Position numbers and translations under genes: made by a program. Of a stretch of DNA of 64,000 bases, positions 13,040 to 60,410 are shown piece after piece. How positions within the stretch are numbered: position 1 is the stretch's first letter; each line of letters starts with the position of its first letter. The notes under the pieces are model-generated. The model searched no databases. It saw nothing but the letters and a program-made list of their open reading frames with translations, and was not told the origin of the DNA. Source of the DNA: Sphagnum magellanicum. Its lineage: Eukaryota > Streptophyta > Sphagnopsida > Sphagnales > Sphagnaceae. The stretch lies in assembly GCA_021904315.1 (NCBI GenBank), contig CM038925.1, forward strand, positions 5,520,501-5,584,500. The letters run 5' to 3'.

Positions 13040-14547
13040 TACCTATTGCATGGGCAAAACCTTTGTGGTCAGGGTTCTATCCTGTTGAGGAAACTTACTT
13101 TAAATTAAATTATGAAACATGCAGCTTGACCAACTCACATTATATGGGTAATGGACATTTGGTCCACTCCTAGCTAATTGTGTCCCGCCAAAATGAATAT
13201 GTTCAAAACGTGCTGATCATTGAAATAAATATGTTTGCAACATTAGGATTGCCAAAACACAAATTTTCAGAATTTGACAATGACCAATTTAAGCAATATT
13301 ACATAAATTATATGCATTGGACAAATTGCCTTTGACTCTATGAAAACCATCTAGAGCTGAACACCAACAAAATAATATTAGTGGATGTCTAAAATTTCAC
13401 CACATGAAATTATTGTGTCGTCAAGTTCACTCCATCATTTGTCCCGGAGTGTCATTTTTGTTTTTAATAAAACTTGGAAGATGATATGGACCCCTACACA
13501 TGATGCGTACTATTCTAGATGTGAACCTAGGCTTGACCAAAACTCCATAAGATAATGAATTTCAACATTTTCCTGAGAATATTTTGTGGACTACATCAAC
13601 TCTTTTGATTCCCACATAGAAATTTAGCAAAACGAAACTTCTCACATGTGTTAGTGACCATTAAAATGCCAACTGGTAACACAAGCTAGGTAGCTTCCAA
13701 GGGTACAAGGTAACAGTCTTGCTCTAAGCTATGTTCTTTTGGTGCCAAATTTTGTCAAAATGTGAAAAATGAAACAGGAATATTTTGTGGCAATATTCCT
13801 TTTTCTGCTAAAAATGGTCAAATTGAAAACCCTCCCCACATTTGGATGTTGATTTTAATTTGGTAGCATTTTTACGACCAGTTTTTAAACTACTTAGACA
13901 TGATTAAAAACCTGTTAGCATTTAATGCTAAGTCCCTCTTGGGATGCTAGCCAATGATGCAACATCAGAAAGTTGGAAAAAATATTGCTTGCTCTTAGGG
14001 TAAAAGGCAAATAATATAAATAAAATGCAAGAAGCAGAATCTTATCAATAAGTTAAGTAAAAAAGATTCCATCAACAACAAATCAAAGTTGCAAAATGTT
14101 AGAATTTACACGAGTTCCAAGATTATCCTTCCATGTTATTACCTTTTTGTCCACATTTCAAAACAATTCCCCATCCTCAAAAAGTAAACTTCCAATACAT
14201 GAAACCCAAGTATGGCATCCAAAAGGATAAGAAATGTTTTTCTTCCAACCGAGTGAAGCATACATTTACTCTTTCATTTGTGAGTGGACATGGCTGCGTA
14301 AAGGACATACCCACCCATTATTGGCGGATATCTCTTGGGAAATTAGTTGCCGACAAAATATTGGTGGGTACATGATTTACCTGTGCCCAATATTGGGTTT
14401 CCCAACAGTCCTCTTTTGTTGGAATTTCAAAGCAATTGCGCGTATGCATGGAACATTCTACAGGGACACAACACCAATCCATGTTGCGCTAATGGCCAAA
14501 GCACACAAGGTTTGTAACCATCCACGAAATATTGCAAAAGATAAAAC

Positions 14548-14553
14548 TTTATT
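14548..14553 (-). terminator. Poly(A) signal of germin-like gene, copy 1
   Basis: AATAAA on the minus strand, about 180 bp downstream of the stop codon of the germin-like gene. The same signal is at the same distance in copy 2. Confidence 0.6.
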
Positions 14554-14733
14554 GGGAATTGAATGGCATGACGGCCAACTCAACCACTTTCATGTCAAGT
14601 GGGATACTGAATCTGATGCCCCGCACAAAATTTGCTGCAGTGCCATAGGCAGTCCCTAAAGAATAATTTAAAGGTTGCATCTCATGCAACATCTATAGAC
14701 ATAGAGTATGTATGAATATGTATGACCTTTGAT

Positions 14734-15423
14734 TCAAGCTTTCTTATTAGCAGCTGTGACTGCGTACTCGATCTTTTGGACTGCCTTTTCACCCAATCCG
14801 AATGCTTTTTCCAAGACCACCTCGGTGATGTTGGAATTGAATAACGCTACTGCCTGTATTTGCGTACCTGGGTTCTGGCTGTTCAGGGCTGCAATTGCAG
14901 TTGCAGTACCGTCGCACACGTTGAGCTCGAAGTGCAAAAGACCTCTCGGGAACACAAACAGATCGCCCTGCTGCAACGTGGCTGAATAAAGTTTTTCATC
15001 GGTGCTCACGAAACCGACGAACAAAGAACCCTCCACCACGAAAATGATCTCTGTGGCCCGAGGGTGTGTGTGGGGTGGGACGAGACCTCCTTTAGCGAAG
15101 TCCAGGCGTGCCATGGAAATCCCCAAAGTGTTGATGCCCGGGAATTGTCCTGCAAATGCTCCTGTGACGTTACTTCCAAGGGGGTTGTTGGTGTTTCCAG
15201 GGGCGGCCAAGAGAGGGGACATGAAGTCGGTGCCGGTCACAAGGGCAGGGTTCTTGCAGACCAGACCGTTAACGATGGTGGGGTTGTTGACATCGGCGGC
15301 GACACAGAAGTCTTGCTCTGGGTCCGCATCTGATGCAATGGCCATCATGGGGAGGAGAGCTAGCTGCAACACAAAAAGTGCCACTGTGACACGACGGACG
15401 TGAGCTGAAAAGCTCCCAGCCAT
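14734..15423 (-). CDS. Germin-like protein (secreted cupin), copy 1
   Basis: Germin-like proteins are secreted, often glycosylated, manganese-binding single-cupin proteins of the plant cell wall; some are oxalate oxidases or superoxide dismutases, many have no known activity. The 229-residue length is typical. Residues 1-31 form a signal peptide (hydrophobic run ALFVLQLALLPMMAIA). The family's paired N-terminal cysteines are C40 and C56. Germin box 1 (about 112-132) has the metal ligands H118, H120 and E125 in PPHTHPRATE; box 2 (153-168) has H164 in FPRGLLHFELN. NVT at 85 and NIT at 198 are potential glycosylation sites. The frame is open 15 codons further upstream but without another ATG, so the ATG at 15,423 is chosen; it places the signal peptide correctly. 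No intron interrupts the coding region. The protein is identical to that of copy 2. The enzymatic activity cannot be told from sequence. Confidence 0.94.
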   Translation of the reverse strand: MAGSFSAHVRRVTVALFVLQLALLPMMAIASDADPEQDFCVAADVNNPTIVNGLVCKNPALVTGTDFMSPLLAAPGNTNNPLGSNVTGAFAGQFPGINTLGISMARLDFAKGGLVPPHTHPRATEIIFVVEGSLFVGFVSTDEKLYSATLQQGDLFVFPRGLLHFELNVCDGTATAIAALNSQNPGTQIQAVALFNSNITEVVLEKAFGLGEKAVQKIEYAVTAANKKA

Positions 15424-15618
15424 CGCGTTGACGAATGCTTGTTGGGGAGACCGCTGCAGATTGAGCAAAGTTAGAGAAAATTCTTGACCCCAGGTAGGCA
15501 GAAAACAATTGAGCCAGCAATACTAGTGTAGGACGAAGGGGTCTGATAGGCAAGGAAAGCAGTGTAAGAAGAGGAGTCAGGTGAGCTCTGCAGTTGGAAT
15601 GGAGGAGTGTGCAGTTTG

Positions 15619-15626
15619 GATTTATA
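15619..15626 (-). promoter_or_regulatory. TATA box of germin-like gene, copy 1
   Basis: TATAAATC on the minus strand about 200 bp upstream of the ATG, inside CTATAAATCC. Conserved at the same distance in copy 2. A 5' leader of about 170 nt is implied. Confidence 0.6.
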
Positions 15627-15781
15627 GTGAGATGGCCAAGGTGGCGTACAAGGGATGCCAAAGGTGGAGGTGGAAAAGTGCGTACACGTTCAATCAATTG
15701 TCCACCGTCCTTGTCAATCCCGTGATGGACCATTCTAACCGATGGCTCTAGAAGCTGTAGGAGATAGTGGCATACTGAGAC

Positions 15782-15880
15782 AAAGGGCAAAATCTTTTTG
15801 GAAGGGGCCAGGTTGATTGACCCATCGCCAGTCTTTTGGAACATTGGGCACTCCCCAGTAGAAACATCTCTTCGGACCCC
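15782..15880. repeat. GCCAAT-containing upstream element (copy 1 promoter)
   Basis: The block around GGTTGATTGACCCATCGCC and GGAACATTGGGCACT is also present in copy 2 (about 58,700-58,790) and, diverged, twice in tandem at 60,411-60,640. It lies about 370-460 bp upstream of the start codon. Confidence 0.55.
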
Positions 15881-16454
15881 AAGTCCAGATATAGAATCAA
15901 ATGTGCTCTCTAACTTTTCAGTTTGTGTACATGGGAATGGAACTTTGTGTGGGATAAAGTTGAGGTGCTGTTGGGAACAAATTGGGAACTTGGAGGGCCC
16001 TGGATGCCTGCTACCTCAGCTAGATCAAAAATTTGAAAAAGAAAAAGAAAAAGCCATTGCGTCACAAGAGTTTTCATATTTTACAGATATATATATAAGG
16101 AGTGCCCCTATAAATGATGCATGAATGGATATAGGGGCTATATCAATTCAGCACCCGAAAAAAGGTAATGGTCAATATACATGCTTGTATGATTGTGTTA
16201 AAGGAGGAATAGTTAGTAAGTAGTTAGGGTATGCTGGCCCATCACCAAGGCAGCCTATGATCGAACACTTTGGCAGATCTTTCTCAATTCTTCTCCATTT
16301 TGAGTGATTTAAAATGTTATAGGAGTGCCTTCTCAAGCTTTACCAATCATCTTTCAAATGCAAAGCCAAAGGACCAGCCAAAAAAGAGCAGTAAAGAAAA
16401 TACATTTTTTCAAATTGCAAAACTTCTTTTTCTTCATTTTGAACCCTCCTACTT

Positions 16455-17095
16455 TCAAACCTCATAACATTCTTATTTCTTATTCATTTTAAACGATTTA
16501 AAGTGCTATAGGAGCATCACTTGAAATTCTACAAATCATCTTGGAACTATATAATAGCAACAGAACAAGATAAAAGGAATTTTTTGGGTGTTCGGGAATT
16601 GGCCTTTGTAACGTTTTGGTGGTTTGTTTGTTTTAGTTCTTGACCCCCTTTACTTTGGGGGGCAATAATTTTCTCAATTCTATTTCGTTTTTGACAATTT
16701 TTAGTGTGCTAGATGCACCAATATGAGGGGTTCAAGTTTTGTTTGGGCACTAAAAACAACAAAGCCCTCCCCTTGGATCCAACCTGCCCTAAGTGCTTAA
16801 ATGTTTGATCACCAACTGGTTTACCCTAGTGGTTTTCTTCCCTAATTTTGAATTCTTGGACATGGGCTTTGTTGATGATTGATTTCATACTTGTTTTTTT
16901 TTTTAATGTGATTTTTTTTCAAGATTTTAAATTTGTGAAGAAAATTGGATTCTATGTTGAATGAAGTGTTTTGCACATATGTGTTTGGTTTGTTGCATGA
17001 TCTATAGTTTTATAATATATGTACTTGTTACTGTAATATTTTTATGATAAAATAATATTATAACTTCTACTATGATCTACTAAATATTTTTTATA
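16455..17095. other. Segment unique to copy 1
   Basis: Copies 1 and 2 align on both sides of this stretch but not inside it; copy 2 has only about 140 bp of unrelated-looking sequence in the corresponding place. It is noncoding and AT-rich, so it is either an insertion in copy 1 or a deletion in copy 2. Confidence 0.45.
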
Positions 17096-17099
17096 AGAA

Positions 17100-18110
17100 A
17101 ATTTCATGTTCTTGTTTTTCTTTTAAATCTATGTCATTGATTGATTAAGTTTTTTAAAGGATTTAAATCAAAGTGGGATAGTTTCAATAAGGGTTTGGTC
17201 TACAATGGAATCTATTATAGGATCTTGGTTAGAGAAGGAAAAAGTGAACGAAATGATTACAAGAATCTTGCAAAAGCAATTCGATCAAACAACGAATAAA
17301 TATCTAAAAATAATGGTGTGCCAGCAATAGAAGTATGTCGTGAACATGAAGAAATGGAGGTTGTAACATCAATGCATGTGTAATCACAAATGTCATAAAC
17401 AAAAGATAAGCTTGCAAGGTACATGACTATTTTAATGAAGACAAATGTTTCAAAAAAAATTCAAATTGTACTAACAATGAAGTGTTACAATAACTAAGAT
17501 TAGTACTTGGGGAATATAAATTCTTCGAAGAATTTTTCAAATTCACAACCAAAATCTATAACAAAACATGTATTTCCAAATTTGAAACAACAAGTGCTAG
17601 AAAAGGAGGGATACTAATTCCAAACTTCTTGACATTCAAATTTTTAAGGTTCAGTTGGTAGTGAAAAGCATGGAGTTGGAGGAAAGAGAAAAAATTGTAA
17701 TAAGATGGGTGATCCATGTACATGCTTGGTAATCCAAAATCCACCATATTATGAACCACCAAGGGACTAGGAAGAAATTCATAACCATTTTGAAGTTGTT
17801 TATGAAGAATGGGTGAATGCCAATCAAGGAACCATAGGAACTCGAATGAAACATATTACAAAAGGTAGCACATGAATTTTTTTGCACCCTCAACATGTTT
17901 TTGTAACAAAATAATTAATGAGGAAAACATTATCCATGGACAATTGTATTGGGCGTATGAACCAAGGAATGATGCAATTCGTTGGAATGATGAGGTTGGT
18001 GAATGGACCACCATTATGTCGATAAATCCATGTGCCAAATTGAATACCCAAATCCTCACCATCTATTAGGTGTAAGTATTATCATTAGGAAGGATGTGTT
18101 ATGGATCAAT
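17100..18110. other. Older diverged duplicated stretch, no identified gene
   Basis: Homologous to the inverted stretch at about 56,050-57,070, but by eye only about 80 percent identical, much lower than the adjoining germin-like core. A plus-strand frame at about 17,872-18,069 (words HGQLYWAYEP and DEVGEWTTI) looks protein-like and its counterpart in copy 2 is recognisable, but no family is recognised and stops occur in both copies. Confidence 0.5.
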
Positions 18111-18179
18111 GATGCTAGCAAGCGAACATGAGTAGGTGAACCTTATTGCAACCTTAACATTGGGTTCGCAATCAAGTGT

Positions 18180-19060
18180 GAAGTGCAAGGGCCATGAGGC
18201 CAAGAGTGTGTTTAAATGTCAAACACACTCTCACAAATGGAGGAGAGTGCAAGGGATGAAGCCCAGTGACTCCCAAGTGCACTCCCACTTTGGGAGTTGC
18301 ATTTGTGCGGGAGTTGTGAATGTTTGGAACCTTGATTGGAAAGGTAAACAAGCACCAAATTGGGCCCCTAGGACACCATTAGAAAGGTCTTGAAGCATAG
18401 ATGTGTAAGGTGCCCTCACATTGTTCATTTAAACCTGATTTGCATGAGTTATGATCAAAAGAAAAGGCAAGAGTCAAATTGGAAATTTGACTCCCAACCA
18501 CAAATCCCTTGAAAGCAGGGGTCAAATGAGGTCCGATTAGGGCGTGCTATACACCTTTGGAAAGATCCTTTTTGAGGGCAATAAGATAATTGTTTCGCAT
18601 TTTCAAAACAAATTTGATTTGAAAAATATATGAACGTCCAAAGTTTTGGGATAACAAAAGTTTCAATTTTGGGACTCCCAGGGAAAAGTGACATTTGGAT
18701 GTCGTCCTCGTAGAGAAACACAAAGTATACTATAAGGAGGGGAATGGTGCCTCCTCCCAAAGGTTGTGAGTTGTGTAAAACTTATGCTTGAAGTTGTCCT
18801 TACTAAATCCATCACACCACTTCCATTGAACTTACACTAACTAACCTCTTTTCTTGGTTGTGCAAATTGACCTCATCTTGAACTCTCGCTTATGGATTTG
18901 TCCTAGTCCCATTTCAAAGCTTTAGCATGCCCTCCTACTTTTGAAGTGTTGTAAATTAGGGAACATGCCCCAACTTTCTTTTTTTTTCGTTGTTTCGTTC
19001 TAGGACCCACCTTTGGGTTTATGGAGGAATTCAGGGGCATGTCAAACATACTCACGTGAA
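18180..19060 (+). mobile_element. Possible LTR fragment (low confidence)
   Basis: The stretch has a TATA-like ACTATAAGGAGGGG about two-thirds of the way along, conserved-looking GGACACCATTAGAAAGGTCTT and CCTTTGGAAAGATCC phrases of the kind seen in plant LTRs, and a GC-richer profile than its flanks. A perfect 10-bp inverted repeat, GAGTGTGTTT/AAACACACTC, lies at 18,204-18,230. No second LTR, primer-binding site or polyprotein was found nearby, so a solo LTR is only a guess. Confidence 0.3.
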
Positions 19061-19073
19061 TAGGAATGAGTTT

Positions 19074-19205
19074 TCAAAAATATTTCATGCCATGTCATGG
19101 AATATTCTTCATATATTCATTTGCCATGTGGAAAATATTTTGTGACATGGTAGAATATTCCATGACATGGCAAAATATTTTATGACCTGCCATGAAATAT
19201 TTTGC
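19074..19205. repeat. Cluster of inverted ATATTTCATG / CATGACATGG words
   Basis: Sequence at the left (AAATATTTCATGCC, ATGTCATGGAATATTC) recurs as its reverse complement on the right (GAATATTCCATGACATGG, GCCATGAAATATTT), forming a compound palindrome about 130 bp long. Confidence 0.6.
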
Positions 19206-22200
19206 TACTTCACATGTGTGATTTGTTTGGGGATCAATAATGGCTTATTGATTCTAAACATGGGTTTGGTTTGCAAAGTTGTCAAGAATAGCATCATGTG
19301 AAGGTTTGAAGGCACAAGGAAATAAAAAGATGCATTTTATCATCCCTATGCAACCAATGTTCCAAATGTTTAGGGCTCTTGAACAATAATTACAATATTT
19401 TCATAACTATTGAAATGAGTGGAAATTACATGTTTAAAAAATATTTGATGAAATAAAATTCTCAAAATATACTAATTATTTGATAAACATGTGTTGAAAT
19501 GGCCAAGGTACTAGGTGCAGATGAGCTCAAATGAACCAAAATTATTTTTGCAATTTTTATTACATTTGTCTATGTGGTGCCACTTTAGTGGCATGTGAAT
19601 CATGGAATGTTATGCTTATTGAATAATATGGATATTGAAAAAAATTAAATGAATCAAAAAATTTCCAATATCAAAGTTTGGTTTAGACAAAGGATGTTTA
19701 ACATTTTCATTCAATGATATTACTTTCAAAAATGGCCCCTTAGTTCTCATAATACAATTTATTTCATCCTCAAAAATTTTGTAGTAATAGGGTACTATTA
19801 AACACATTCAAAAAACATTCAAATTTTCATAGTTTTCAAATTTGGTGTTTATCAAAATCGAAGGTTCTTAAAAAGTTTATGAACCTTTTACAACATGTAA
19901 ATGTGATGCAATGTATATGTTGTCTAAAGAAAAGTTGTAGCTTATAATATAAAAATTAAACTTGAAAATGTTAACATGTTTTTGTATGATTTGAAATTAT
20001 GAAAAATTTTCAAACAAAAAACAAAATTCGTGCATTTTCAAAATTTTGTATTTATTCAAATTTGATTATAAACAAACATATGACATATTGGGGCAACTAT
20101 AAATACAATAGATAATTTTTTTCAAAATATTTCATTTGAAAATATTTCCTCTTTATGAAAACATGTTTTTTTGTCAAAAGGACCCTAAAAAGGACAATAG
20201 TCTTGAATGTAAAGTGAACACGTTGGTTTGTTGTATGTTGTTTGAACCTTAGTACGATGTTATAAAAATACACATGGAAGCATGTTATGACTATCAAAGG
20301 TTTTATTGCAAATATTGGCCATTGCCTAAATGGAAATAAATTTATGAATCCATATACTTTTATGCCACACCACTAATGTATATTCATCACAATAAAAAAT
20401 AAAACATCTATGTAGAAATATAGAGTTTAAAAAAAACCTTTAAGCCATAATAAGAATTTAAACTTCCTATATAATCTGACCAACTACAACAAACTTTATG
20501 ACTGAAAAAATCACAATTGATTTGATGTAAATATAATTTGTGATGTACTATCACTAGAGTTCAAGAATGCATCAACAAATGTTGAACTTCTTCCCAATTC
20601 CACATGTAGTGATGAATGAACCTTTTTATGAGACCATAAAGCATCATCGTCTTCGAGACGTGATACACATGTTTACATTGCACATATGCCCCATGGCTAC
20701 CCAAAGAAACTACCAACATTGCAACAAAATATACACATGAACATGTAAGAAATTTTCAATAGTGACATTGTATTGTTTGTCATTAGAAAGAATATTGTAA
20801 ATTTGTCCATACGTAAATGGCAAGACATCAATAGGGGGGAAAATAGTGCATTGGCGAAATAAGATGCCAACTTCCCAATTGTTGGTGTGTTGTTGTGTTA
20901 ATTTGAAGATGAAAGGTTGTTTCACCTTCTTGCCACCATGAATTGTACGCCAACAACTTGCAATAGACGATGTCACAAGGTTGTGACCACTCATAGTAGG
21001 CACATGGGAAATGCTTGAACTAGAAGATTGGAAACCAAGTAAACTTTGAGTGTTGTTTTTACGTAGGTGGTCAAAGGAAAACCATGCTTTTTCTAAAAGT
21101 TGTTATCTCCTTTTGAGTTATGTTAACACCCTCTTGGATGGGCCATACAATTGGAACTAGAGGCCTAACAATTACATATTTTTACATTGTCCCACCAATG
21201 TAATGCCTTAAGTCATTAGGACAAAATCAGTGTTTATGGTGCTCAAATGATCCGCTTCGATATTATGCCTAGAAACTTGAGTAACATGGAGTAGGAGTTC
21301 CACTTATAAATTTATAAAGATTGATATTTGTTTTGCATTTGAGCCCTATGGTTTTTTGGAATGTAGAACATTGAATTGCAAATTTGGGTGGGCAATGTTC
21401 AATATGCCATTACACAAATAGTTTCTTTTAATTCCAATCCACCACAAGATAATAAAGGGAACAAATTATTGGAACCAAAGGGTGGTTATTGCATGGGTAC
21501 ATCTTCGACAATATTAGGTTCAATAATGGGAACAATTAATCATAAACGAGAAAAATTTACATGGTCAAGACAAAGGGAATCATTATCTGCACAAGAGGAT
21601 AATCAATAGGTCACTTGGTAGATTCGTAAACCTTTTCACCTTCAAGGTGCGAAAGGCGATTTGTGAAGGATGACCTAAATGTGTAATTTGCCATAACCAC
21701 TACAAGTTTAGCAAGATCATTAGACCCTTGAGCCTTCCTCAACAACAGTTCATTCCTATAAGGTCCATGGATTGCCTTCCAAATGTTATTTATACAATGT
21801 AGATTATTTGAAAGCATGAATGTATTGTCAGACGTTGTTGTACAGAGACAAATGTCGCAATTTCCCAACTATTGTAACCACATATTATGCACAATTTTTA
21901 CTAAATTGTAAATGGACATGTCTACCCACTCCTCATCATTGATTTTTTGCAGATTAAAAGAAAAGAAGCATTAGCAAAATCCAAAATGTCACAATGGAGA
22001 TGGAGATAGAATGCAAATGGAATTCGAGTGCAAATGAGCATGTAGTTTTGAATACATAAAAGAGAGGGGAAATCATAGGAAGTTCACAAAAGAAATACTC
22101 GTATGGACAATGAAACCTCCCCATTGTCTGACATGAAAATGCCAAAAGTTAAGCCAATTGCTAAGCTCATGGACACCCCAAATGAGAACCACCAACAATA

Positions 22201-22689
22201 AATTAGAACATAAAAATTGTCAACCTCCCCAAGGGATGTGGCATTGTTGTACTAGTGGCAAAGAGCCTTGTGTTAATTTTGCAACTTACGTTTGATTAGT
22301 TGTTTACTATGCCCATTGAATGATTAAGTCCAATGGAATACACAGGTGCGTTCCTTATCAACCATCTTGATAGAGCGGTCCCCTAAACCATAAACAATTT
22401 TGATCGTGTTCTAATTGGTTTGTGCACTATTAGCCATGAATCCCTTGAAATTTGGTTTTGGAAACCCATGTTTTAACATGATCTCATTATTTTTTTTCCA
22501 CATAATTTGTTGAAATTTTGTGTCCTCATATTGCATATCACAAACTACTATGGTCATCATTTTATAATAGACAGGATCATACACATGAAAATCCATAGTT
22601 GTCAAACCAACAACCTATTCCACATGATCAAACATGATCCAAGTGTTTTGCAAATCCCTTGTATGTTGGGAGCAATTTTTTTTTTTAAC
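19206..22689. other. AT-rich DNA with short unidentified frames
   Basis: No gene is supported. Protein-like but unassigned short frames exist on the minus strand (20,710-21,003; 21,611-21,868) and plus strand (21,376-21,609), all broken. They may be remnants of one or more transposons. Confidence 0.4.
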
Positions 22690-23910
22690 AACCTTCAATT
22701 GAACTCAAAGCTCAAAGCAAGGAGCTTTGCACATGGCCGAAAAAGAAAAAATTGATATTGCCTCTAACTTTCGGCACCAAAACTTGTAGGCTAGGGAGGG
22801 GAAAAAAAAAAATTTATTTATTTCCTCCTTAACCTCCAACTTTCGGTGCTAAAAATTAGATGCCTAGTAGAGCTTGTGCCTGGAGCTCTAGGAATGTCCG
22901 AGAGTAAATTTTTATGTTCGTCATCAAAAGTAAGAAGTCGAGCATAAAACAATCACTCAAACTCTATGAATGGAAATCTAGGCATGGTTCAAAGCAATTT
23001 TTTTTGCTTTTGATCTCCTATTCTTGGCGCCAAAAATAACAAGTCGAGAGTAAAAACAAATTCCTTGGCCATGATTTGAGTTTCTAAGCTTTTTGTTTAG
23101 AGTTCTAGGCATGGCCAAGATCATTTTTTTTGGTTTTGGCTTCCTACTATTAAAAGTAGGAGGTGGAGCACAAAAAAAATTGCCTTGGCCATGCTTTGAA
23201 CTTTTAAACTTTGTGCTTGGAATTTTAGGCATGGCGGAGAGCAAAGTTTTTTCTCTTGGCCTCCTATTTTCAATGTCCAAAGTAGGAGACTAAATGCAAA
23301 AAAATGCTCCAATTATTTACATAGAAATATGGACATGGTTGAGACCAATTTTTTTGCTTTCGGTTTCCTACTTTTGGTGTCAAAAGTAGGAGGCCAAAAG
23401 TAAAAAAATTACCTTGGCCGTGCTTTGAATTTCTAAGCTTTGTGCTTAGAGTTCTATGCATGGCCAAAATAAATAAAAAATTGTCTTGGCCTCCTACTTT
23501 TGGCATAAAAAATAGGAGGTTAAATGCAAAAAAATTTGTTTTAGCCATGTTTTGAGCTTCCAAGATCCGTGCTTGGAGCTCTAAGTGTGGCCAAAAACAA
23601 TTCTTTTTTACTTTCAATCTCCTATTTTTGGCTTTCAAAGTAGGAGGCTAAGAGCCAAAAAGTTTGCGCGAGCCATGCTTTGAGCTCCAAGCTTTGTGTT
23701 TGGAGTTCTAAGCATGGCCAAAAGAAAAAAGGTTTTGTTCTTGGCCTTCTATTTTCAATGTCATAAGTAGGAGGTTGAATGCAAAATGCTTCGGGCATGT
23801 TTTGAACTTCTAAGCTTTGTGTTTGGACCTTTCAACATGGTGAAATCTATCTTTTTATTCTTGCCTCCTACTTTTAATGTCGAAACTAGGAGGTCAAAAG
23901 TAATAAAAGT
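22690..23910. repeat. Tandem array of about ten 105-130-bp units with internal hairpin
   Basis: A diverged unit repeats head to tail, with starts recognisable by GGCATGGCCAAG-like words near 22,981, 23,109, 23,228, 23,331, 23,457, 23,584 and 23,712, plus weaker units before and after. Each unit contains CTTTGTGCTTGGAGTTCTA, and a short inverted repeat in which CCTCCTACTTTTGG is followed within a few bases by CAAAAGTAGGAGG. Short ORFs on both strands here simply follow the repeat. Confidence 0.85.
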
Positions 23911-25558: not shown

Positions 25559-25917
25559 GGGGGAAAATGTTATATCTTCCAAAGAAATTAGAAGTATTGT
25601 TATGATTTTTTCCCTTAGTTTGCCCTTTGCCTTGTTTATTTTTACCTTTAGATACCTAATCATGTTTTGGGTCCATGTTATGCATGTTATGAACATGTTA
25701 TGGGTATTAGGGGTATGTAACATGTCATTGAACATGTTATGTGCCCTTTGGAACATTCATAACATGGATGGGTATGAGTCCAAAATGTGTTCGGGTATCA
25801 CCTGATTTGTTTTTTAAAATATGAATGGGGCAAAGGGTAGACTGGGGGGGAAAAATTGCAGTAATACTCTTTTGTACTAACTACATTCAATTTCTTTGGC
25901 CGATTTAACATTTTCCC
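25559..25917. mobile_element. MITE-2, same family as MITE-1
   Basis: Ends are inverted repeats (left GGGGAAAATGTTATATC; right GATTTAACATTTTCCC), and the terminal about 100 bp match MITE-1 (TTGCAGTAATACTC, ACTAACTACATTCAA, TTCTTTGGCCGATTTAAC). The interior shares GGGTATGTAAC and ATGTTATG words with MITE-1. Noncoding. Confidence 0.75.
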
Positions 25918-27077: not shown

Positions 27078-27109
27078 GCATGCATACATATGTATATTGT
27101 TCATATAAT

Positions 27110-27700
27110 GAATCTCAAATTTAATATTTCAAGTCTGAAAATTAGTAATTGCGTCTAAAAATGGACATTTCAATTTTGAATATTGTTATTTGAATATGAA
27201 AATTAACATTTGAATTCTGAATATTGTTATTTAAATTCAAAAAACTTATTTGATCTAAAAACCGATATTTGAATTCTAAATTATTATTTTTGATTCTAAA
27301 AATTATTATTTCAATTTAACAAACTTTATTGAGTCTAAAAATCGGCAATTTGATTTTAAATATTTTTATTTGAACTTGAAATTTGATGTTTGAATTTTGA
27401 AGTTTAAAATTTAAATTTTAAGAAATTATATGACTTGAAAGTTGAAATTTGAATTCCAAATTATTATTTTGGATTCTCAAAATTAATATTTAAATTCAGA
27501 AAATTATTAATTGATTTTTAAAACAGAAATTTTAATTTTAAATATTCATATTTGAATCTGAAAAATAACATTTCAATTCTGAAATTTGTTATTTAACTTT
27601 GAAAAAATTATTTGATCTAAAAATTGATATTTGAATTTTGAATTACTATTTTGGAATCTTAAATTTATATTTTAATTCAAAAAATTATTGATTGAGTTTC
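27110..27700. repeat. Degenerate AT-rich tandem repeats
   Basis: Phrases such as ATTTGAATTCTAAATTATT, AATTATTGATTGA and TTTTAAATATTTTTATTTGAA recur with a period of roughly 120 bp or its half. Very low complexity, inside CACTA element A. Confidence 0.55.
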
Positions 27701-40364: not shown

Positions 40365-40603
40365 ATTTTTTGTGAAGTTTTTCTACATTCTAACCTTCCA
40401 ACCTCATCGCCTCACCCCCATTCCTTAAAACTATTACAAGATCTTCCCTCCACTCCTTTCCTTCTTCCCTCTCCTAAGTCTCATCCCCATTTCCTTTCAA
40501 AAGTCTTCTGAAACAAGTATTCAAGGAAATTCTCCAAGGCAAAAAAGAGACCCCCCCAATCATCCTAGTCGCCTTTTAAAGAAAAGGAGAAGGGAGGTGA
40601 AGG

Positions 40604-40860
40604 AGGATCCCATGCTTGGTGGTCAAAGGAGGATCCCATGCTTGGTGGTCAATGAAGATCCCTTGCTTGATGGTCAATGAAGATCCCTTGCTTGGTGGTC
40701 AATGAAGGATCCCATGCTTGGTGGTCAATGAAGATCCCTTGCTTGGTGACCAATGAAGGATCCCATGCTTAGTGGTCAATGAAGGATCCCATGCTTGGTG
40801 GTCAATGAAGATCCCTTGCTTGGTGGCCAATGAAGGATCCCATGTTTGGTGGTCAATGGG
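40604..40860. repeat. Minisatellite, about 33-36-bp unit, seven to eight copies
   Basis: The unit alternates between GGATCCCATGCTTGGTGG and GATCCCTTGCTTGGTGG with TCAATGAA linking. The overlapping minus-strand frame of 65 codons (repeating TTKHGI/DHQAWDPSL words) is a consequence of the repeat. Confidence 0.9.
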
Positions 40861-41113
40861 AGGAGAAGAAGAAGGTTCCTTGCTACCTATTCCCACTTCC
40901 CCTTGAGCAACTTTATTTGAACCTTCATTTTATTTTATTTTTTATCCTTTGACCTTAAATTTTTACTTTACCATGGTCCTAGGCCATCATTTACACCTCC
41001 TCTTCCTTTCCTCGGCATATAAATCATGACCGCAAAACTTGATGTCACAAGTCCACCCCACCTCCATTGTCAATTTGATTTTGTTGAAGATCTTTCCTCT
41101 TTTCCTTGAAAGT

Positions 41114-44554: not shown

Positions 44555-46879
44555 CTAGAGCAATTTGGGAAACCATAGGAAACCATAGTAAAAAACATCT
44601 TGAACTGCTATGGTTAGCCTGACATAATGTCCTTGTTCACAATAGTAATGTAGGATGTTGTGTAGAATTAATCCCTTGTTTGCATGAGTAAATGGATGTA
44701 ATCTCCCAAATGTTGATTTGTAAAACAATTTGAATGTTTGGACTACGTGTAAACACTTTGTATCCAATGCTTGCAATTCTTTTTCCATTTCAGTAATGAT
44801 GTTATGCAATTTTGCTTTAGTGTGCTCCCATGGGCATTGAAGACCTCCATCCAAAGGATATCACTTCAATAGATGGTACAATGGTCACCAACCCCACTTT
44901 GACCTCTCCTCATGAACTTTCAGCTATTGGTCAATTTTTTTCATTTCATGTAAAATATAATCTGTTTTTTTCTTCTTGAGTGATTATGCGGCATTCACTT
45001 TATTGCATCATACTCCTTTTTTTGTTGCAAATATTGTAGGTACTTTCGGAGGCATTTCATTTTAGTGAACCTTTGCATGGTGTTCTCTCCACTTCCTCTA
45101 GATGTCCAAGCATTCATGGATTGTTTAACGACATCTGAAATGTGGGTTGTCCTCTCAATCCCTCCACCAACCTATAGGATGGGCAACAATAAGTAAGACA
45201 AAAAAGAAAACTAGAGCAAACCATAAACCAAAAAAGTTCCAAGAGTTGTAGAATATTCATTGGTGGATAAAAATACCATTGACCAAATGTTGACACAAGC
45301 ATGTTGCTTAAAATGTTGTATGTTTCTAGTTTCGTTAGAAGCGCCATTGTGTTTTATGGTTTTTCCAATGCTTTCTATCCATGACAATATCCGTCTTTGA
45401 TAGTAGAACATAAAGCCCATTAATCTTGACTTCCAAAGGAGGAGGAGATAGCTCACAAGTACTTTCCACTATGAAAGTTTCCACAATTGACCTTGCCTTC
45501 ACCTTAATCTTTAATCTACTAAGAGGTGGTATGCCCTTATGTGGTAAGGTTGCAACAGAAAACAAAAACAAATTTGCATTTAATTTGTCTTTCTTGTTAG
45601 GGCCTTTTGCATTGTCCAATGTGGGATTTTGCAAAGGTGGCTTCTTGAAAACCACAAGGTTTGGGGCCAAATTTACAAATTGTAAAATTGACAATTAACT
45701 TTAAAGGCAAACCTCCCACATTACATTCACAAAATCAAAAAATGAAAGTAGACATGGTTTGGTAATTCTAAGAGAAGAAAAATCTTCATCATTGTTCAAT
45801 TCATAAATCTCCTTCTCGTTAGGAGTTACGGGTCTTCCACGGGGCATTCCCATGAGTTGTTTCTAGTTCTTGGGTGGTGTTGCCTTTTTAGGGGAATGTT
45901 TTGTAACATTTTCAATAGGATGTTTTAGTTGGTTTGGTAGAGTCTTCCCATGTTTCTCCCCTAACTTGGTAAGCTTTTTAGCTTTAGATTTGGTGATGGT
46001 GGGATATATTTTCAGCAATTCCTTCCTTGTGTAATCAGGACACAAGTTCATCAACCTGTGATAAAATAATGTATTCTTGTCTTTAAACACATTCCTATAG
46101 AACTTACATTCAAATGAAGGCATGTTGCCAAAAGTTGGTATATTTAGGCGCTTCACATCAAAGTGAGCTTCCAATGCCAACATTTCATACTCCTTTTTTA
46201 GGTATAATGCAACACAATGGTGTTTACTTTGTCGCATTGTGGATTTGTGGATTTTACTTTTGCCTTCCAAACCATCGAAAATCTACAAACAATAAATAAA
46301 TTGATGCCCAAATCCTAAACTGAAACTACCTTACAGTTGAATCTTTGAAAAGTTACAATAGTAGATGCATGCATCTATTGGAATAATCTTGCACAATTCC
46401 CAACCTTAGAGCTTTACATCATACCATCACAACATCACAAAATCCAAGTAATATTACATTTTCCATACCTCCTACTACATTAATTATTTTTTGTTTGTTC
46501 TTTGTTTTTTTTATTCTTTTTCTACTTCACATTTCTTCTTACCTAAACCTAGAAAAAAATTGACATTGCACAAAGACAAAAATAATAAGCATAAAGAAAA
46601 CCCAAGGCAATTTTAAACGGTACATAATTGTTTCCTTCCTCACCATGCTCACCAACAAATCCATGGATGACAAAAAGAAAGGAAGACACGACTTACCCCT
46701 TCTACCCATCCTGCTGCTATCGTTTTAATAATCTTGATGTATTTTTGTCGATCAAATAATTGAATCATATATGGGTCCTCTTGTGCAATGATGGGCAATA
46801 CCTCTTGTAACACATGTCTCTGCTCCCCCTCCTCTTTTGCATTCATTACGACATTAGTTTGCAGAGGTGGGTCCTCCAA
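44555..46879 (-). pseudogene. Minus-strand cluster of unidentified frames
   Basis: Four co-oriented minus-strand frames lie in order: 46,649-46,879, 45,863-46,270 (135 codons, Lys-rich tail, with FECKFYRNVFKDKNTLFYHR resembling a degenerate zinc finger), 45,335-45,694 and 44,555-44,854 (with KLHNIITEMEKELQALDTKC, coiled-coil-like). Shared orientation and spacing suggest exons or fragments of a single decayed gene or transposon ORF, but no domain is secure and stops separate them. Confidence 0.3.
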
Positions 46880-48899: not shown

Positions 48900-49377
48900 T
48901 TGGGCCCACTAATTCACCTACCCACCTACGACCTACCTACCTTCCTACCTCCCTACCTAACTTAATTAAGTAATAAATAAATAATCAATAGGCTTTTTTA
49001 ATTGCCACATGTCACCACATAATTGGCCTTCACAAATGGACACATGTCAAAATCCAATTCACATTTTATTGGATGGTCGAAATATTATTAATTTACTACT
49101 AATGATGAATATTGAAATAATGTTTAAATGCCAGACATACCATATAATTGAACTTCACAAATGAACATGTGTCACCATGGGCAAATGTTGTAGAATAATG
49201 TAAATGTATAAAGTACAAATTCATATCATATATATTGTTTGCATATGTAACTACTAGATGTGTGCAACTTGTCTTATGCAACTATTGGGTTTAATAGTTG
49301 CATGTGTCGCATGCAACTAAAAATTAATTACATACGACACTTGCAAAATGACAATTTTCTTCTAATGAAGGGGTTGT
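48900..49377 (+). mobile_element. 3'-end fragment of a CACTA element (fragment C)
   Basis: Ends TTTTCTTCTAATG like element A, has the same ACCTACCT-rich patch (48,903-48,965), and the same subterminal order CACATGTCA..., GCAACTATTGGG, TGTCGCATGCAACTAAAA. The 5' half of the element is missing. Confidence 0.65.
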
Positions 49378-52300: not shown

Positions 52301-53000
52301 CCACCCAACTATAAATTGTGAACATGTTTGTGTGCAATTTGAGTTTGATTTCAAGTTTAATATATGGTTTACAGTTTGAGTTTTACTTTTAGTTTGAGTG
52401 ATGGTTTTTACTTTAACAACAAAATTACATTTGCAAGTTATATTGAATCCAGTTTGAATCTCAATTTTGGTTTTGATTAACTTTGTTTGTAACTATTTCG
52501 TAGTATTAGGTGGCACCCATGTCACCTAAAATATTAAACATCCTAATCACAATAGACATGCCATTTGGCATCCATGTCATTAAAAAAAGACAATTAAGTC
52601 AAAACAAATAGGCCATTTGTCATACATGTTAACTAAGCTATTAGACACTATAGTGAAACTGGACATGCCATGTGAGTTCCATGTCACCAAGAAGTTAATC
52701 ACATCTATTAACACGGACAACTATATGTCAACACAAACTACATACACTTTAGTAATAATGGACATGCCTAGCCGGATATAAATAGACACTTAGTCATGAT
52801 AGATTCATGTGGTGAAAATGACTTGTCTATTTTGATTGTAGCAAAATTTGTCCACTATCCATTGTGATCGAAAATTTAGTCATAAAAACCAACATATACA
52901 TAAATGTAATAGTGTGGTTAAACACATATTGAAACCCCATACAAACAAAGGAGGGGGCCTTGACACGTCCCCTAACAAAATATTAAATATTAGTTTCAAG
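49378..53000. other. AT-rich DNA with broken plus-strand coding-like words
   Basis: Protein-like fragments such as EAHWEQLKRVLMQEENVDRV (about 49,775-49,834) and MMEEILAFMKTSSVGYEGKK appear on the plus strand among many stops, suggesting a degraded transposon body. No family can be named with confidence. Confidence 0.35.
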
Positions 53001-56000
53001 TTTGGTAGTGTTATTATTGACCATATGCTTATATCAAATCACGAAAGACATAATTCCAAGAATTGACAATGGTTGGTTCTACGGTTTACAAACTTGTTAC
53101 CACATCTCATTGCGGGAATTAGTGGTTTCCATTTGTTTCCAAATTTCACATGCATTGCTTGACACAATAATCTATTAACATCTAGGACCAATAGATGTCA
53201 TACCTTTTTAAATTACCAAAATGCTTAAATTGATAACATTGCAATTACCCACCTATTTTGCAAAAAGGATATGTTAACTAGCTTGTGGAACATTTGCATC
53301 TAATGGTATTGACATGGTAGTATCCATGATTTGCTTCCCACGAATGTTCATTTGTGTTTATTATATGCACTACCAATCTTCATGTTCGAATTGGAACCAT
53401 TAGATGTTTGCACCATTACATTTGTAGTTTAGGCATAATTCGAAAATTCATCCCTTTTCAACTCCATGAATGGTTGCATTCGAACTCTTTATTTTGTTAA
53501 TGAAATTAAGCCCCAACCCTAAAAAATAATCCTATAATTGGATTTTCCACATCTTACATCAATAAGTTGTAAAAACAAAAGTAATACATAATGCACCTAC
53601 AAACAAAGGGGAACTATGAACTAAAATCCACATCCTCAAATGTTTAGGATTTAGCTCCACTTTTATAGTTGGAAGCAATCCATTTTACCACTATCTAATT
53701 GCCATCATTTATTTATTCCTTGGCAATACCATCTGATTTTTCTTTTTCCTCCAATCTATAAAAAATATCATGAATAGAGGATGTTGATTTCAAGAATGCA
53801 AACATCTCTTCCATCATTGTTGACTGTGCTAGATTATAGATATGCCTTTCAAGTTTTTATACATCTAAGCAAAAATGTCATTACACTCCATTAATAATTC
53901 CTTCAACAAACTCATGTTCTCCCATGCCAGTTGTGCATTAACCTTAATCGTATGTGGACTATCCTTTGTACCCAAATTAATCTTCATGAATTATTGGACT
54001 TTAGTTAACGTCTATTGTTAAGGCCACTTGGTGAACTATGGAGTTTGGTTGTGAAGAGATGTAGGAGTAGAAGATAAAATCTACTTTTGCAATGTAGGTA
54101 AGCAAGTAACTTAAGTATTTTCCTATCAAATTAGGAGGAAAGAAAAACCAAGCATTCAACAAATTTTTTTTTGAAGCAAATACAAGTTTAAAGAGCTTAC
54201 AATGAAAAAAATACTTCCAACAACAATTGGAAAAGATAACTTTCACAATATCAAAAAATGCACAAAAACTTCATAAACTTATATTAAAACATCCCTTTTT
54301 CATCAACATTAAGATCATAGAATTATAACAACGAATGATGTATTTCAACTACCTAGGGTTCCCCATATAAAACCTTTAAAGTAGTTAAAAATGGCGAAAA
54401 TCCAAAAAGTTAGGGGAATCCCAAAAATCTCTTTAAAACTCATAGTAAATCCTTTCTAGAAATCCTTATATAAAGTCAATCTAATCAACTAACATTTTGG
54501 TTTAAAAATATACACAAGTCAAAAATCAATAATACGTTTTTGGTAACAAAAAATCGATAGTAGTTTCTAATAATGATTTGTGGAAATAGTTCTCAATAGT
54601 GATTTTTGGTAATAAAACTTTGATAACGTTTCTTGGTTACAAATTTTTGGTAGCACTTTTTAGTAACAAATTATCAGTAACACCTTTTGATAACATATTT
54701 CCGATAACACTTCTTGATAATGGTTTCCAGTAGTAGGTTTTCGGCATTGATTTTCAATATTGGTTTCTGGTAGTCAAAATTGATACTAACAACTCTTTTT
54801 TTTTAAATTCTCACATTTTTTACACCCTAAACAACATCCACCTTGCAATTTGCAATTCTTACATTTTGATTTTGCTAATGTTTCATCTACCTATACAAAA
54901 CTTGGTTTGTGGTGGCAAAAAGTTTCAATATACACCATGTTTTCAATAATTACTTCAAGTTCTTTGTTGACCCTTTCCTCAAGAACAATTCTATGGTCTA
55001 CTATAGTGTCTTATGAAGCACTATAATTTAATTTTTTATTCCTCTCCCATTTTCAATTTTATTGACTCTTAATGAAGTTACTCCTTCTAAAAGTAAACTA
55101 ATGCTACCAATAGAAAATAGAATCATGATAAAATAGGGCCAACCATAGTCAAAGTGAGGTATATTTGGGGGGAAGTTAAGGCAATTGACAATCACGTCAT
55201 TTAATCGTCCTAAACCTTGTGGCAATCAAAAGTTTGTATTGGGGTGATAGAAAAAAATTCAAGTAGTGATTGAATTTTTTTCATGTAATGATTAAAATGT
55301 TTTTGGCCAACAATTAAATTTTTTTAGTGTTAGATCAATTATGGAGATTTAACCATTGTCCATCAAACGATTGAAAATTTTCAATCGGTCAATTTGATGA
55401 ATGAATTTTTTTGGTTGCTTAAGTTGGTGGTCAAATTTTTTAAGCAATGATTGAATTTTTTGAGTAGTGATTACAAGCGCTTGCGGATCAATGGTGGAGA
55501 TTGAACCATTGTTGATTGAAACATTTGAAATTTTTGGTCACTTGATTTGGTGAATGAATTTTTTGGTTGCCTAGTTTAATGATTAAAAAATTGGGCATTC
55601 AAAAATTTTCGATTGAAAAACTAATTTAACCAAAGGAATTGGATCGTTGAAAAAAATCGTCAACATCTGTCCTAATAGACAAAACTAATGTGTTCGGATG
55701 GATGTTGACACGACAACAAACCCAAATTGGGCATGTCATGCCATTTTTAACAACCTGGGGGCCATTGAGATGCACCTCAAACTATTCCTCTTGCGGTATT
55801 AACATAAAGGTTATCCATAGCCACATTGGTTGATTTTAATCGATTTGGAACAATATGAACCTACATTTGTGCTATAATAATTGATATGTCCATAAAGGTA
55901 ATCTAACTGTAATTGGAAGATTGGTTTACACCCTTCCACACACATCACCTCCATCGTTTTCATGGGTATAGAGATGACATTATCAACAATTAAATATGAT

Positions 56001-56049
56001 GATATAGATTGATACGTGAATTCATCAAGTACATGTTATATTATTCCTT
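53001..56049. other. AT-rich DNA with two diverged tandem repeats
   Basis: Around 54,530-54,780 a 30-40-bp unit of the type GATAACACTTTTTGGTAACA repeats imperfectly. At 55,329-55,436 and 55,484-55,588 a block containing GGAGATT(T/G)AACCATTG, CGATTGAAA-like and GAATGAATTTTTTTGGTTGC repeats with a period near 155 bp. No gene. Confidence 0.5.
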
Positions 56050-57876
56050 AGCACAATGGATCATCAATGTAAAGGCATTCATTCATAACATGTCCTTTCT
56101 ATTGATAGTACCTACCCCTATTGGATGGTGAAGATATGGGTATTTGATTTGGCACATGGATTTGTCAATGTAATGGTTGTCCATTCACCATCCTTGTTAT
56201 TCCAACAAAATGCATAAATCATACGTTCCATACAATTGTCCATAGTTTATGCTTTCGTCACCAACTACTCGTTTACAAAGACATGTGGAGTTTGTGCAAA
56301 CGATTGATGCACTATGTTTTATAATTTGTTTTGTTTGAGTAATTATAATATTTGAATTGTTCCAACAATGTATGGTACTAGTGATTCCACTACTTGATTA
56401 ACATTCACTCATTATTCATTAAACAACTTTAGAATAGTTATGAATTTGTTCCCACTATTTGGTGGTTCATAGTATGGTGGAATCTTGGATTGCCAAGCAT
56501 GTACATGGGCCACCCATCTTGTTGTGGATATTTATTCTTTCTCCAACTCCATGCTTTCACTACTAAATGAACCTTCAAAATTTGAATGTTGAAGAGTTCA
56601 AAATCCCTATCCCTCCCCTTCTAACAGTTGTTGATTCAAATTTGGAAATACATGTTTTGTGTGAATCCCAAAAATTCTTCAAATAATTTTTTTTCCCAAA
56701 GTATTAATCTCAGTCATTGTAGTTCTACTTCATTTATAGTTTGAAGTTCTTTTGAAACATTTATCTTCATTAGAATATTCATGTACATTGTAGGTTTTCC
56801 TTTGTTTTTGACATTTGTGGGTTTTGTGATTACACACATGTTGTTGTTACAACCTCCATTTCTTCATGTTCACAACATACTTTTGTTGGTGGCACGAACA
56901 TTATTTATGGATCTCTATCCATTGCTTGATTTAATTGCATTCATAAGCATCCTATAATCATTATGTTCATTTTTCCCTTCCCTAACCAAGATCTCATGAT
57001 AAATTCCTTTGTAGACCAAACTTTCAAAACAACTATGATCCCACTTAGATTTAAATCCTTTAAAAACTTTAATCAATCAATAACATGTAGATTTAGAAGA
57101 AAATAGAAAATATGCAATTTATTTACAGAATAATAACAATATATCAAAAAACAACCTAAAAAGAACTACAATTCTTTCTTGAGTTCATCCCAAAAATGAT
57201 CGTCAAATGTCAAAATGAAGAAAAAGAAGTTTTGGAATTTGAAAAAATGTACTTCCTTTACTGCTCTTTTTTGGCTGGTCCTTTGGCTTTGCATTTGAAA
57301 GATGATTGGTAAAGCTTGAGAAGGCACTCCTATAACATTTTAAATCACTCAAAATGGAGAAGAATTGAGAAAGATCTGCCAAAGTATTCGATCATAGGCT
57401 GCCTTGGTGATGGGCCAGCATACCCTAACTACTTACTAACTATTCCTCCTTTAACACAATCATACAAGCATGTATATTGACCATACCTTTTTTCGGGTGC
57501 TGAATTGATATAGCCCCTATACCCATTCATGCATCATTTATAGGGGTATTCCTTATATATATATCTGTAAAATATGAAAACTCTTGTGACGCAATGGTTT
57601 TTTCTTTTTCTTTCTCAAATTTTTGATCTAGCTGAGGTAGCAGGCATCCATAAGCTGTTGTAGCCAAATTTGGCTTTTACATAAATATGAAAGGAAAACT
57701 TTAAAAACATCCTTATACTTTTTGGTTAATAATTACTTGAAACATGTATAGAAATCTGGTGAATTTTCTAGATTATTTTAATTCAATTTTTCGTGATTTG
57801 CTTTCAAAAAAATCATTGAATTTGTGACGCAAAGTCTCAAATTTTTTTGTTTTACGCGCGTGCAAAATGGTCGGCC

Positions 57877-57882
57877 CACGTG
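57877..57882. promoter_or_regulatory. G-box (CACGTG) upstream of germin-like copy 2
   Basis: CACGTG within GGCCCACGTGGTGACG, about 1.26 kb before the ATG. This hexamer is a known bZIP/bHLH target, with CACGTGG an ABA-response core. Function here is inferred only. Confidence 0.35.
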
Positions 57883-58113
57883 GTGACGGTCTACCCTGTC
57901 TGTCCATGGATGTGGACCAAAGATTATTGGGCGGGCGGATTCCGTAACCTGTTGTCGCTGTCTCGGGGGAAGACTTACCACTTGGGCAGCCCCCGATGAC
58001 CGGTCAGAGATCGGCCCTTCCCGAAGGAAACGCATGACTGTGTATACGCGTTGTCTGGACTGCAGCCTGTATAGCTGCCGAATCATCTACATAGATCGCG
58101 TGCGTGTAATCTA

Positions 58114-58119
58114 CACGTG
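58114..58119. promoter_or_regulatory. Second G-box (CACGTG) upstream of copy 2
   Basis: CACGTG within CTACACGTGGTGGG, about 1.03 kb before the ATG and 240 bp from the first one. Absent from copy 1. Confidence 0.35.
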
Positions 58120-58940
58120 GTGGGCATCTCGTACCCTCGAATCACCATGTAATCAAAGTCAGCCCTTTCTTAGCCTCCGTGCAACCGCCGGCAAGTAACC
58201 GTACTAACGACCATGATCTACGACACTTTGTTTGAGACGGGCTAAACCCCTAAGAAGGCTAGTTTGTAAGAGGAGCAAATTTTCAAGTTCACCGTTTGAT
58301 GTGGAGTGGACCTCACTAAAATACTACCCTGTGCAAATTTAGGACTAGGTCCCACAGTTTGTGCCCCTCCCATTAATTGGCCCAGGCCAGAAATGGTGAG
58401 AAACAGTTTTGGAAATTAAAGTTGTATGCAGCCAATGACAAGGCTCAGGATGCACTCAGCTTTTTGTATTTTGGGGTGGGAGGGGGGGGGGGTCCAGGGA
58501 TTTTTTTCCTCTTGTTCCCAATGTGTTCCCATCGTATTCACACGAGGCTCCTACCCGGTTCCCAGAGGGCTCCCCAAGTTCCCAATGTGTTCCCAACAGC
58601 ACCTCAACTTTATCCCACACAAAGTTGCATTCCCATGTACACAAACTGAAAAGTTGGAGAGCACATTTGATTCTATATCTGGACTTGGGGTCCGAAGAGA
58701 TGTTTCTACTGGGGAGTGCCCAATGTTCCAAAAGACTGGTGATGGGTCAATCAACCTGGCCCCTTCCAAAAAGATTTTGTCCTTTGTCTCAGTATGCCAC
58801 TATATCCTACAGCTTCTAGAGCCATCGGTTAGAATGGTCCATCACGGGATTGACAAGGACCGTAGACAATTGATTGAACGTGTACGCACTTTTCCACCTC
58901 CACCTTTGGCATCCCTTGTACGCCACCTTGGCCATCTCAC

Positions 58941-58948
58941 TATAAATC
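58941..58948 (+). promoter_or_regulatory. TATA box of germin-like gene, copy 2
   Basis: TATAAATC about 200 bp upstream of the ATG, matching copy 1 exactly. Confidence 0.6.
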
Positions 58949-59143
58949 CAAACTGCACACTCCTCCATTCCAACTGCAGAGCTCACCTGACTCCTCTTCT
59001 TACACTGCTTTCCTTGCCTATCAGACCCCTTCGTCCTACACTAGTATTGCTGGCTCAATTGTTTTCTGCCTACCTGGGGTCAAGAATTTTCTCTAACTTT
59101 GCTCAATCTGCAGCGGTCTCCCCAACAAGCATTCGTCAACGCG

Positions 59144-59833
59144 ATGGCTGGGAGCTTTTCAGCTCACGTCCGTCGTGTCACAGTGGCACTTTTTGTGTTG
59201 CAGCTAGCTCTCCTCCCCATGATGGCCATTGCATCAGATGCGGACCCAGAGCAAGACTTCTGTGTCGCCGCCGATGTCAACAACCCCACCATCGTTAACG
59301 GTCTGGTCTGCAAGAACCCTGCCCTTGTGACCGGCACCGACTTCATGTCCCCTCTCTTGGCCGCCCCTGGAAACACCAACAACCCCCTTGGAAGTAACGT
59401 CACAGGAGCATTTGCAGGACAATTCCCGGGCATCAACACTTTGGGGATTTCCATGGCACGCCTGGACTTCGCTAAAGGAGGTCTCGTCCCACCCCACACA
59501 CACCCTCGGGCCACAGAGATTATTTTCGTGGTGGAGGGTTCTTTGTTCGTCGGTTTCGTGAGCACCGATGAAAAACTTTATTCAGCCACGTTGCAGCAGG
59601 GCGATCTGTTTGTGTTCCCGAGAGGTCTTTTGCACTTCGAGCTCAACGTGTGCGACGGTACTGCAACTGCAATTGCAGCCCTGAACAGCCAGAACCCAGG
59701 TACGCAAATACAGGCAGTAGCGTTATTCAATTCCAACATCACCGAGGTGGTCTTGGAAAAAGCATTCGGATTGGGTGAAAAGGCAGTCCAAAAGATCGAG
59801 TACGCAGTCACAGCTGCTAATAAGAAAGCTTGA
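59144..59833 (+). CDS. Germin-like protein (secreted cupin), copy 2
   Basis: The 229-residue product is identical in every residue to the copy 1 protein: signal peptide 1-31, C40 and C56, germin box 1 with H118, H120 and E125, box 2 with H164, and glycosylation motifs at N85 and N198. The one coding difference noticed between the copies is a silent ATT versus ATC in an isoleucine codon of box 1 (residue 126 or 127). The frame is open to 59,099 but the first ATG is at 59,144. The gene is expected to act in the apoplast as a homo-oligomeric metal cupin. The proximal promoter is shared with copy 1, but the region beyond about 600 bp upstream differs by the 0.9-kb block. Both genes point toward their outer flanks, so they are divergent from the roughly 38-kb spacer. 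Confidence 0.94.
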   Translation: MAGSFSAHVRRVTVALFVLQLALLPMMAIASDADPEQDFCVAADVNNPTIVNGLVCKNPALVTGTDFMSPLLAAPGNTNNPLGSNVTGAFAGQFPGINTLGISMARLDFAKGGLVPPHTHPRATEIIFVVEGSLFVGFVSTDEKLYSATLQQGDLFVFPRGLLHFELNVCDGTATAIAALNSQNPGTQIQAVALFNSNITEVVLEKAFGLGEKAVQKIEYAVTAANKKA

Positions 59834-60013
59834 ATCAAAGGTCATACATATTCATACATACTCTATGTCTATAGATGTTGCATGAGATGCAACCTTTAAA
59901 TTATTCTTTAGGGACTGCCTATGGCACTGCAGCAAATTTTGTGCGGGGCATCAGATTCAGTATCCCACTTGACATGAAAGTGGTTGAGTTGGCCGTCATG
60001 CCATTCAATTCCC

Positions 60014-60019
60014 AATAAA
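60014..60019 (+). terminator. Poly(A) signal of germin-like gene, copy 2
   Basis: AATAAA about 180 bp after the stop codon, within the near-identical 3' region. Confidence 0.6.
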
Positions 60020-60410
60020 GTTTTATCTTTTGCAATATTTCGTGGATGGTTACAAACCTTGTGTGCTTTGGCCATTAGCGCAACATGGATTGGTGTTGTG
60101 TCCCTGTAGAATGTTCCATGCATACGCGCAATTGCTTTGAATAAAGAAAAGAGAAGAGGACCTCTGGTGGAAACTACTATGTGGTGGGTAAGTGCATCTT
60201 GACGGAGTTAAACTACCAATAAATTGAGGGCTAAAAATACTTTGCCTAACTTGGTTAGGAAAAAACATTTGGTATCCAGTTCTCTTTATCCTACCCAATT
60301 GGTGAATATTTAGTCTTGTCTTGAATATTCATCCTATCTGGCACATGAAACGGGGGGGTACTTATTTGTGCTACTATTAATTAGGAGGGGGGGGGTTGCA
60401 CCCCTGGAGT

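Follow-up and report, generated by a model that had tools for sequence, protein, structure and literature searches.

In rice, germin-like genes occur as neighbours on both strands, an arrangement attributed to tandem and inverse tandem duplication, and 11 of them form one cluster on chromosome 8, according to the available excerpts of two studies (PMC6375593, PMC5085655). In the available text of the first of these papers, "gene conversion" occurs once, in the title of a reference (PMC6375593). For Korean pine, the excerpted account describes GLP clusters of 25 and 35 genes on chromosome 4, with highly similar coding regions and promoters that are said to differ (PMC12899398). Palindromes of the willow W chromosome are a further described system, in which gene conversion from arm to arm was reported in the part of the study available (PMC7023750).

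Here, we analyzed a 64,000-nt stretch of Sphagnum magellanicum DNA (assembly GCA_021904315.1, contig CM038925.1, forward-strand positions 5,520,501 to 5,584,500), referred to as the window; all positions are counted from its first base. Self-BLAST of the window revealed two inverted matches: 14426–16001 against 60141–58566, with 99.3% identity, and 16001–16442 against 57650–57210, with 97.7% identity. An earlier reading made from the letters alone (the sequence-only reading) had described a large inverted duplication at this position and had proposed aligning its arms base by base. Both the self-BLAST and this alignment bore the duplication out, with coordinates matching within 3 nt. Alignment of arm 1 (14426–16442) with arm 2 (60141–57210) showed 20 substitutions, a 1-nt indel, and a segment of 916 nt that is specific to arm 2. 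The spacer between the arms spans 16443–57209 (40,767 nt). The arms may be able to recombine, and rearrangement of the locus is possible. The features of the arms are as follows:

14734–15423, minus strand: copy 1 germin-like coding sequence (CDS), 229 codons plus stop in a single uninterrupted open reading frame (ORF; Cupin_1; barley germin 2et7)
59144–59833, plus strand: copy 2 germin-like CDS, protein identical to that of copy 1 (ORF; CDS comparison; Cupin_1)
14426–15702, plus strand: near-identical tract of arm 1, comprising 3' flank, CDS, and 5' region with TATAAA (alignment; change-point at 15703)
58865–60141, minus strand: near-identical tract of arm 2 (alignment; change-point)
15703–16442, plus strand: more diverged part of arm 1 (alignment)
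57210–58864, minus strand: more diverged part of arm 2, within which the 916-nt segment lies (self-BLAST; alignment)
57650–58565, no strand assigned: 916-nt segment upstream of gene 2, not in arm 1 (alignment)

Comparison of the coding sequences confirmed that the two genes are intact and encode identical 229-residue proteins, as had been read from the sequence; the coding sequences differ only at base 378 (position 15046 in copy 1), a silent third-position change. Germins and germin-like proteins have about 220–230 residues. A domain search identified Cupin_1 as the single domain of the germin-like protein in both copies (residues 72–215 of 229, E 6.7e-45). The best solved relative was 2et7, which we take to be the barley germin/oxalate oxidase entry (E 1.2e-43; query residues 31–210 on chain residues 1–185). 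In this alignment, residues 1–30 precede the aligned mature start, and a hydrophobic stretch was recognized within them by eye. The query segments PPHTHPRATE and GLLHFELN align with barley PPHIHPRATE and GLMHFQFN; the manganese ligands, presumably the His, His, Glu, and His within these two segments, are kept in the query. The two genes probably encode secreted cupins that bind manganese, with both secretion and metal binding predicted from the sequence. At the columns aligned to barley asparagines 75 and 85, the query has Ala and Val. We assume that these asparagines (barley numbering) are active-site residues of oxalate oxidase needed for oxalate oxidation; a literature search on the role of these two residues found no paper. 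The Ala and Val at these columns suggest that oxalate oxidase activity is unlikely for both copies. Superoxide dismutase activity of both copies would be a guess by analogy with some rice germin-like members, for which the available part of one report describes it (PMC5085655). In both genes, TATAAA lies 203 nt upstream of the ATG. The type of gene and its layout point to a plant source. No further germin-like piece with an E value below 0.083 was found within the window by tblastn.

The intact inverted pair and its identical proteins are the parts of the overall sequence-only interpretation that stood; production of double-stranded RNA (dsRNA) by read-through did not, a transposon-rich spacer was unsupported at the level tested, and the pair is not an isolated one. 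Absent from that reading were the change-point at 15703, an older homology inward of the arms, a direct repeat at 62571–64000, and the divergent orientation of the two genes.

Divergence between the arms is uneven. A single substitution was found in the 1,277 nt of 14426–15702 against 60141–58865, compared with 19 in the 740 nt of 15703–16442. When 20 differences were placed at random, none of 200,000 placements gave an equally long run with one mismatch; the longest difference-free run between the arms, 656 nt, had a p value of 0.0075 on its own. With only non-coding sites considered, 0 of 587 differed inside the tract and 19 of 740 outside (Fisher p 1.8e-5, for a boundary picked post hoc), indicating that protein constraint does not account for the uneven divergence. 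A change-point search with permutations, which allows for the post hoc choice of boundary, placed an edge at 15703 (first 1,575 sites) with a log-likelihood gain of 13.6, whereas 300 permutations reached no more than 6.7. The tract is sharp-edged, and its high identity extends over silent and non-coding sites, the pattern by which interlocus gene conversion is recognized. The identity contrast could be heightened by variation in mutation rate or by constraint acting on untranslated regions.

Two other explanations bear on this contrast. One is a simple recent inverted segmental duplication of 14426–16442 into arm 2, with mutational heterogeneity or constraint near the gene and with the homology inward of the arms belonging to an unrelated repeat family. 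Coding or untranslated sequence makes up part of the tract, as this explanation would have it, but the distribution of the non-coding differences speaks against it, and we consider it unlikely. The other is an artefact of assembly or polishing, namely a haplotig, a misjoin, or reads of one copy correcting another. Over-polishing also yields long identical runs with sharp edges; however, 20 substitutions and two indels, one of them 916 nt long, separate the two arms, and we regard an artefact as quite unlikely. The sequences flanking the arms bear on both explanations. Inward of the arms, two further features were recognized:

17085–18111, plus strand: older inverted homology inward of arm 1 (BLAST; alignment; controls)
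56076–57135, minus strand: older inverted homology inward of arm 2 (BLAST; alignment; controls)

These two stretches, compared as 17085–18111 against 57135–56076, are collinear and inverted over about 1 kb, with an identity of 74% by BLAST with gaps counted and 81% in aligned columns only. The first part of this homology scored 236, and none of 398 control comparisons exceeded 56.5. From the gene inward, divergence passes through three successive levels: that of the near-identical tract (1 in 1,277 nt), that of the adjoining part of the arms (19 in 740 nt), and that of the inner homology (74–81% identity). Between the arm and the inner homology, 642 nt on the side of arm 1 and 74 nt on the side of arm 2 gave no convincing alignment; therefore, the inner homology may instead be a repeat family lying beside both arms, as the simple duplication assumes. 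Its collinearity and its same inverted sense argue against that assumption.

Outside the outer arm edge, homology between 60142 onward and 14425 backward could not be demonstrated, as 4 of 686 controls scored equally high. A score of 31.5 had seemed suggestive against a shuffle maximum of 31.0 (n = 500) and was dropped because those real-sequence controls equalled it. A longer alignment with a score of 55 was rejected, the best of 20 shuffles having reached 66. Diverged homologous sequence thus bounds the inverted tract on one side only, and the outer edge of the tract may be a plain duplication breakpoint. The lack of demonstrable homology between the outer edge of arm 2 and the flank of copy 1 is what a simple duplication would give at its breakpoint, and it also counts against an artefact of assembly. 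Two direct copies of about 115 nt, with 77% identity, lie at 60417–60649, just beyond arm 2.

A further flank was found in direct orientation at the end of the window:

13040–14499, plus strand: copy 1 3' flank and first 74 nt of arm 1, repeated directly at 62571–64000
62571–64000, plus strand: direct-orientation flank of a third copy, ending at the window end (self-BLAST; change-point)
12423–12703, plus strand: further, older direct homology to 62289–62575, 80.6% identity (BLAST)

Comparison of 13040–14499 with 62571–64000 showed differences at 59 of 498 aligned sites left of 13572 and at 5 of 926 to its right, with 42 gap columns excluded from the site counts, so that identity steps from 88.2% to 99.5%. 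The change-point at 13572 had a gain of 48.8; the highest gain among 300 permutations was 9.5. The G+C content is alike on either side (34.5% and 35.5%), and both sides lie past the stop codon. That the direct pair shows a like step, past the stop codon, argues against a simple duplication. The divergence of the outer part of this flank from copy 1 (59 of 498 sites) lies, in our judgement, above allelic expectation, which argues against an artefact. Over its final 74 nt, the window matches the start of arm 1 without a difference. From this register, we infer a third germin-like gene past base 64000 on the minus strand, with its stop codon near 64235. As the third flank is in direct orientation, the locus is part of a cluster, not an isolated pair. 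The 0.9 kb of near-identical direct sequence that copy 1 has in common with the third flank would allow gene 2 to be lost or gained by unequal exchange. Between the homology blocks, copy 1 has 336 nt (12704–13039) without a counterpart at 62575; this stretch may be an inserted small mobile element. Scanning 12400–13100 for bacterial promoters and terminators was uninformative.

We favour, as the probable explanation, an older duplication of germin-like genes followed by later interlocus gene conversion around the gene. The window, which contains two complete members and the flank of a probable third, would cut through a germin-like cluster. The copies in inverted (1 and 2) and direct (1 and 3) orientation would stem from an older duplication. 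In later interlocus gene conversion, the gene and near flanks of one member would have overwritten those of another, and sequence farther away would have kept its age. The identity of the proteins would then reflect this recent copying and not protein-level selection. Crossing-over within an inverted pair inverts the interval and does not copy it; hence, non-crossover gene conversion would be the natural process for copies 1 and 2, and we infer it as the mechanism. The same one-sided step in the direct pair would also result from unequal crossing-over between older copies.

The orientation of the genes also bears on the proposal, made in the sequence-only reading, that read-through could produce dsRNA. 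Gene 1 runs leftward (15423 to 14734) and gene 2 rightward (59144 to 59833), so a transcript that reads through in one arm cannot run into the other, and the proposal fails. A related idea is that the arms are a source of hairpin RNA that silences the germin-like family. Near-identical inverted sequence is indeed present, but the genes diverge, transcription across about 41 kb would have to start from another promoter, and convergence is possible only for gene 2 and the predicted gene 3; we consider such a role extremely improbable. In a broader scheme, inverted and direct copies separated by tens of kilobases would be overwritten again and again, each time only around the gene, so that the protein is held constant and upstream sequence diverges, with the convergent genes 2 and 3 giving regulatory small RNAs. 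This scheme appears very doubtful.

At the 916-nt segment upstream of gene 2, a 25-nt direct repeat (58507–58531 and 58571–58595) flanks the junction in arm 2, one copy to either side, which weakly suggests that the segment was possibly deleted from arm 1; short two-copy repeats often arise by chance. No target-site duplication was seen by eye at this junction. Copies 1 and 2 share the proximal promoter region, and copy 1 lacks the 916 nt further upstream; therefore, their regulation may differ.

The spacer had been described as transposon-rich in the sequence-only reading, which was unsupported at the level tested: 0 of 57 spacer peptides carried a transposon domain in Pfam, with no transposon family found among them at E 0.05. 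These peptides (17141–57076) comprised all 49 stop-to-stop frames of at least 75 aa and 8 shorter frames of the inner homology. Five other Pfam families matched one spacer peptide each, with a best E value of 0.014, and were taken as chance. Old, decayed, or short elements in the spacer are possible. A second set of 41 frames (34 from 79–12985, 2 from the 916-nt segment, and 5 from 60053–62607) gave zf-RVT in one frame (E 3.7e-12); a plant cysteine-rich domain was likewise found in a single frame (E 0.0044). The zf-RVT frame was assigned to 7413–8081 from a separate domain search, in which the reverse-transcriptase zinc-binding domain zf-RVT was found there on the plus strand, far from the arms (E 3.5e-12 for 7428–8081). 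It is the only clear transposon domain found among the scanned frames and presumably marks a non-LTR element remnant. A transposon-borne duplication would be expected to show transposon coding sequence, terminal repeats, or a target-site duplication where the arms end. Together, both sets covered 90 of the 121 window frames of at least 75 aa; the other 31 mostly overlap the germin-like genes or other frames. Frames 45866–46270 and 9722–10087 gave no domain match, and the match of frame 6159–6944 was below the family's cut-off (E 0.044). Rfam gave no matches at gathering scores across the window. Several repeats were observed: a tandem array at 40600–40864 with a 26-nt unit in about 10 copies and higher-order periods of 51 and 77, and degenerate tandem arrays in the spacer at 23366–23755 and 27124–27697 with periods of about 127 and about 180 nt. 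In addition, 12760–13034, within the 336-nt stretch of copy 1, resembles 25604–25912 with 67% identity.

When duplicated plant genes encode identical proteins, either recent duplication or strong selection may be held responsible. The non-coding flanks here suggest an old duplication and recent sameness, in which case dating the cluster by gene divergence would mislead.

Germin-like clusters have already been published, and the window is an ordinary further case with a neat conversion signature. As in the rice clusters, germin-like genes lie here on both strands, with inverse copies. Unlike those clusters, as far as the available excerpts describe them, the two genes here are about 44 kb apart and the identity step suggests conversion, a process that the excerpted rice text does not discuss. 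The locus resembles the Korean pine case in being a germin-like cluster with highly similar coding regions; recent tandem duplication is invoked in the available part of that account, whereas the window shows stepwise identity in non-coding flanks. As in the willow palindromes, the gene-bearing stretch of the inverted copies is near-identical. The willow arms share about 20 kb, and the W.P1 spacer is a few kilobases long in the excerpted report, whereas 1.3–2 kb are alike here and the spacer measures 41 kb.
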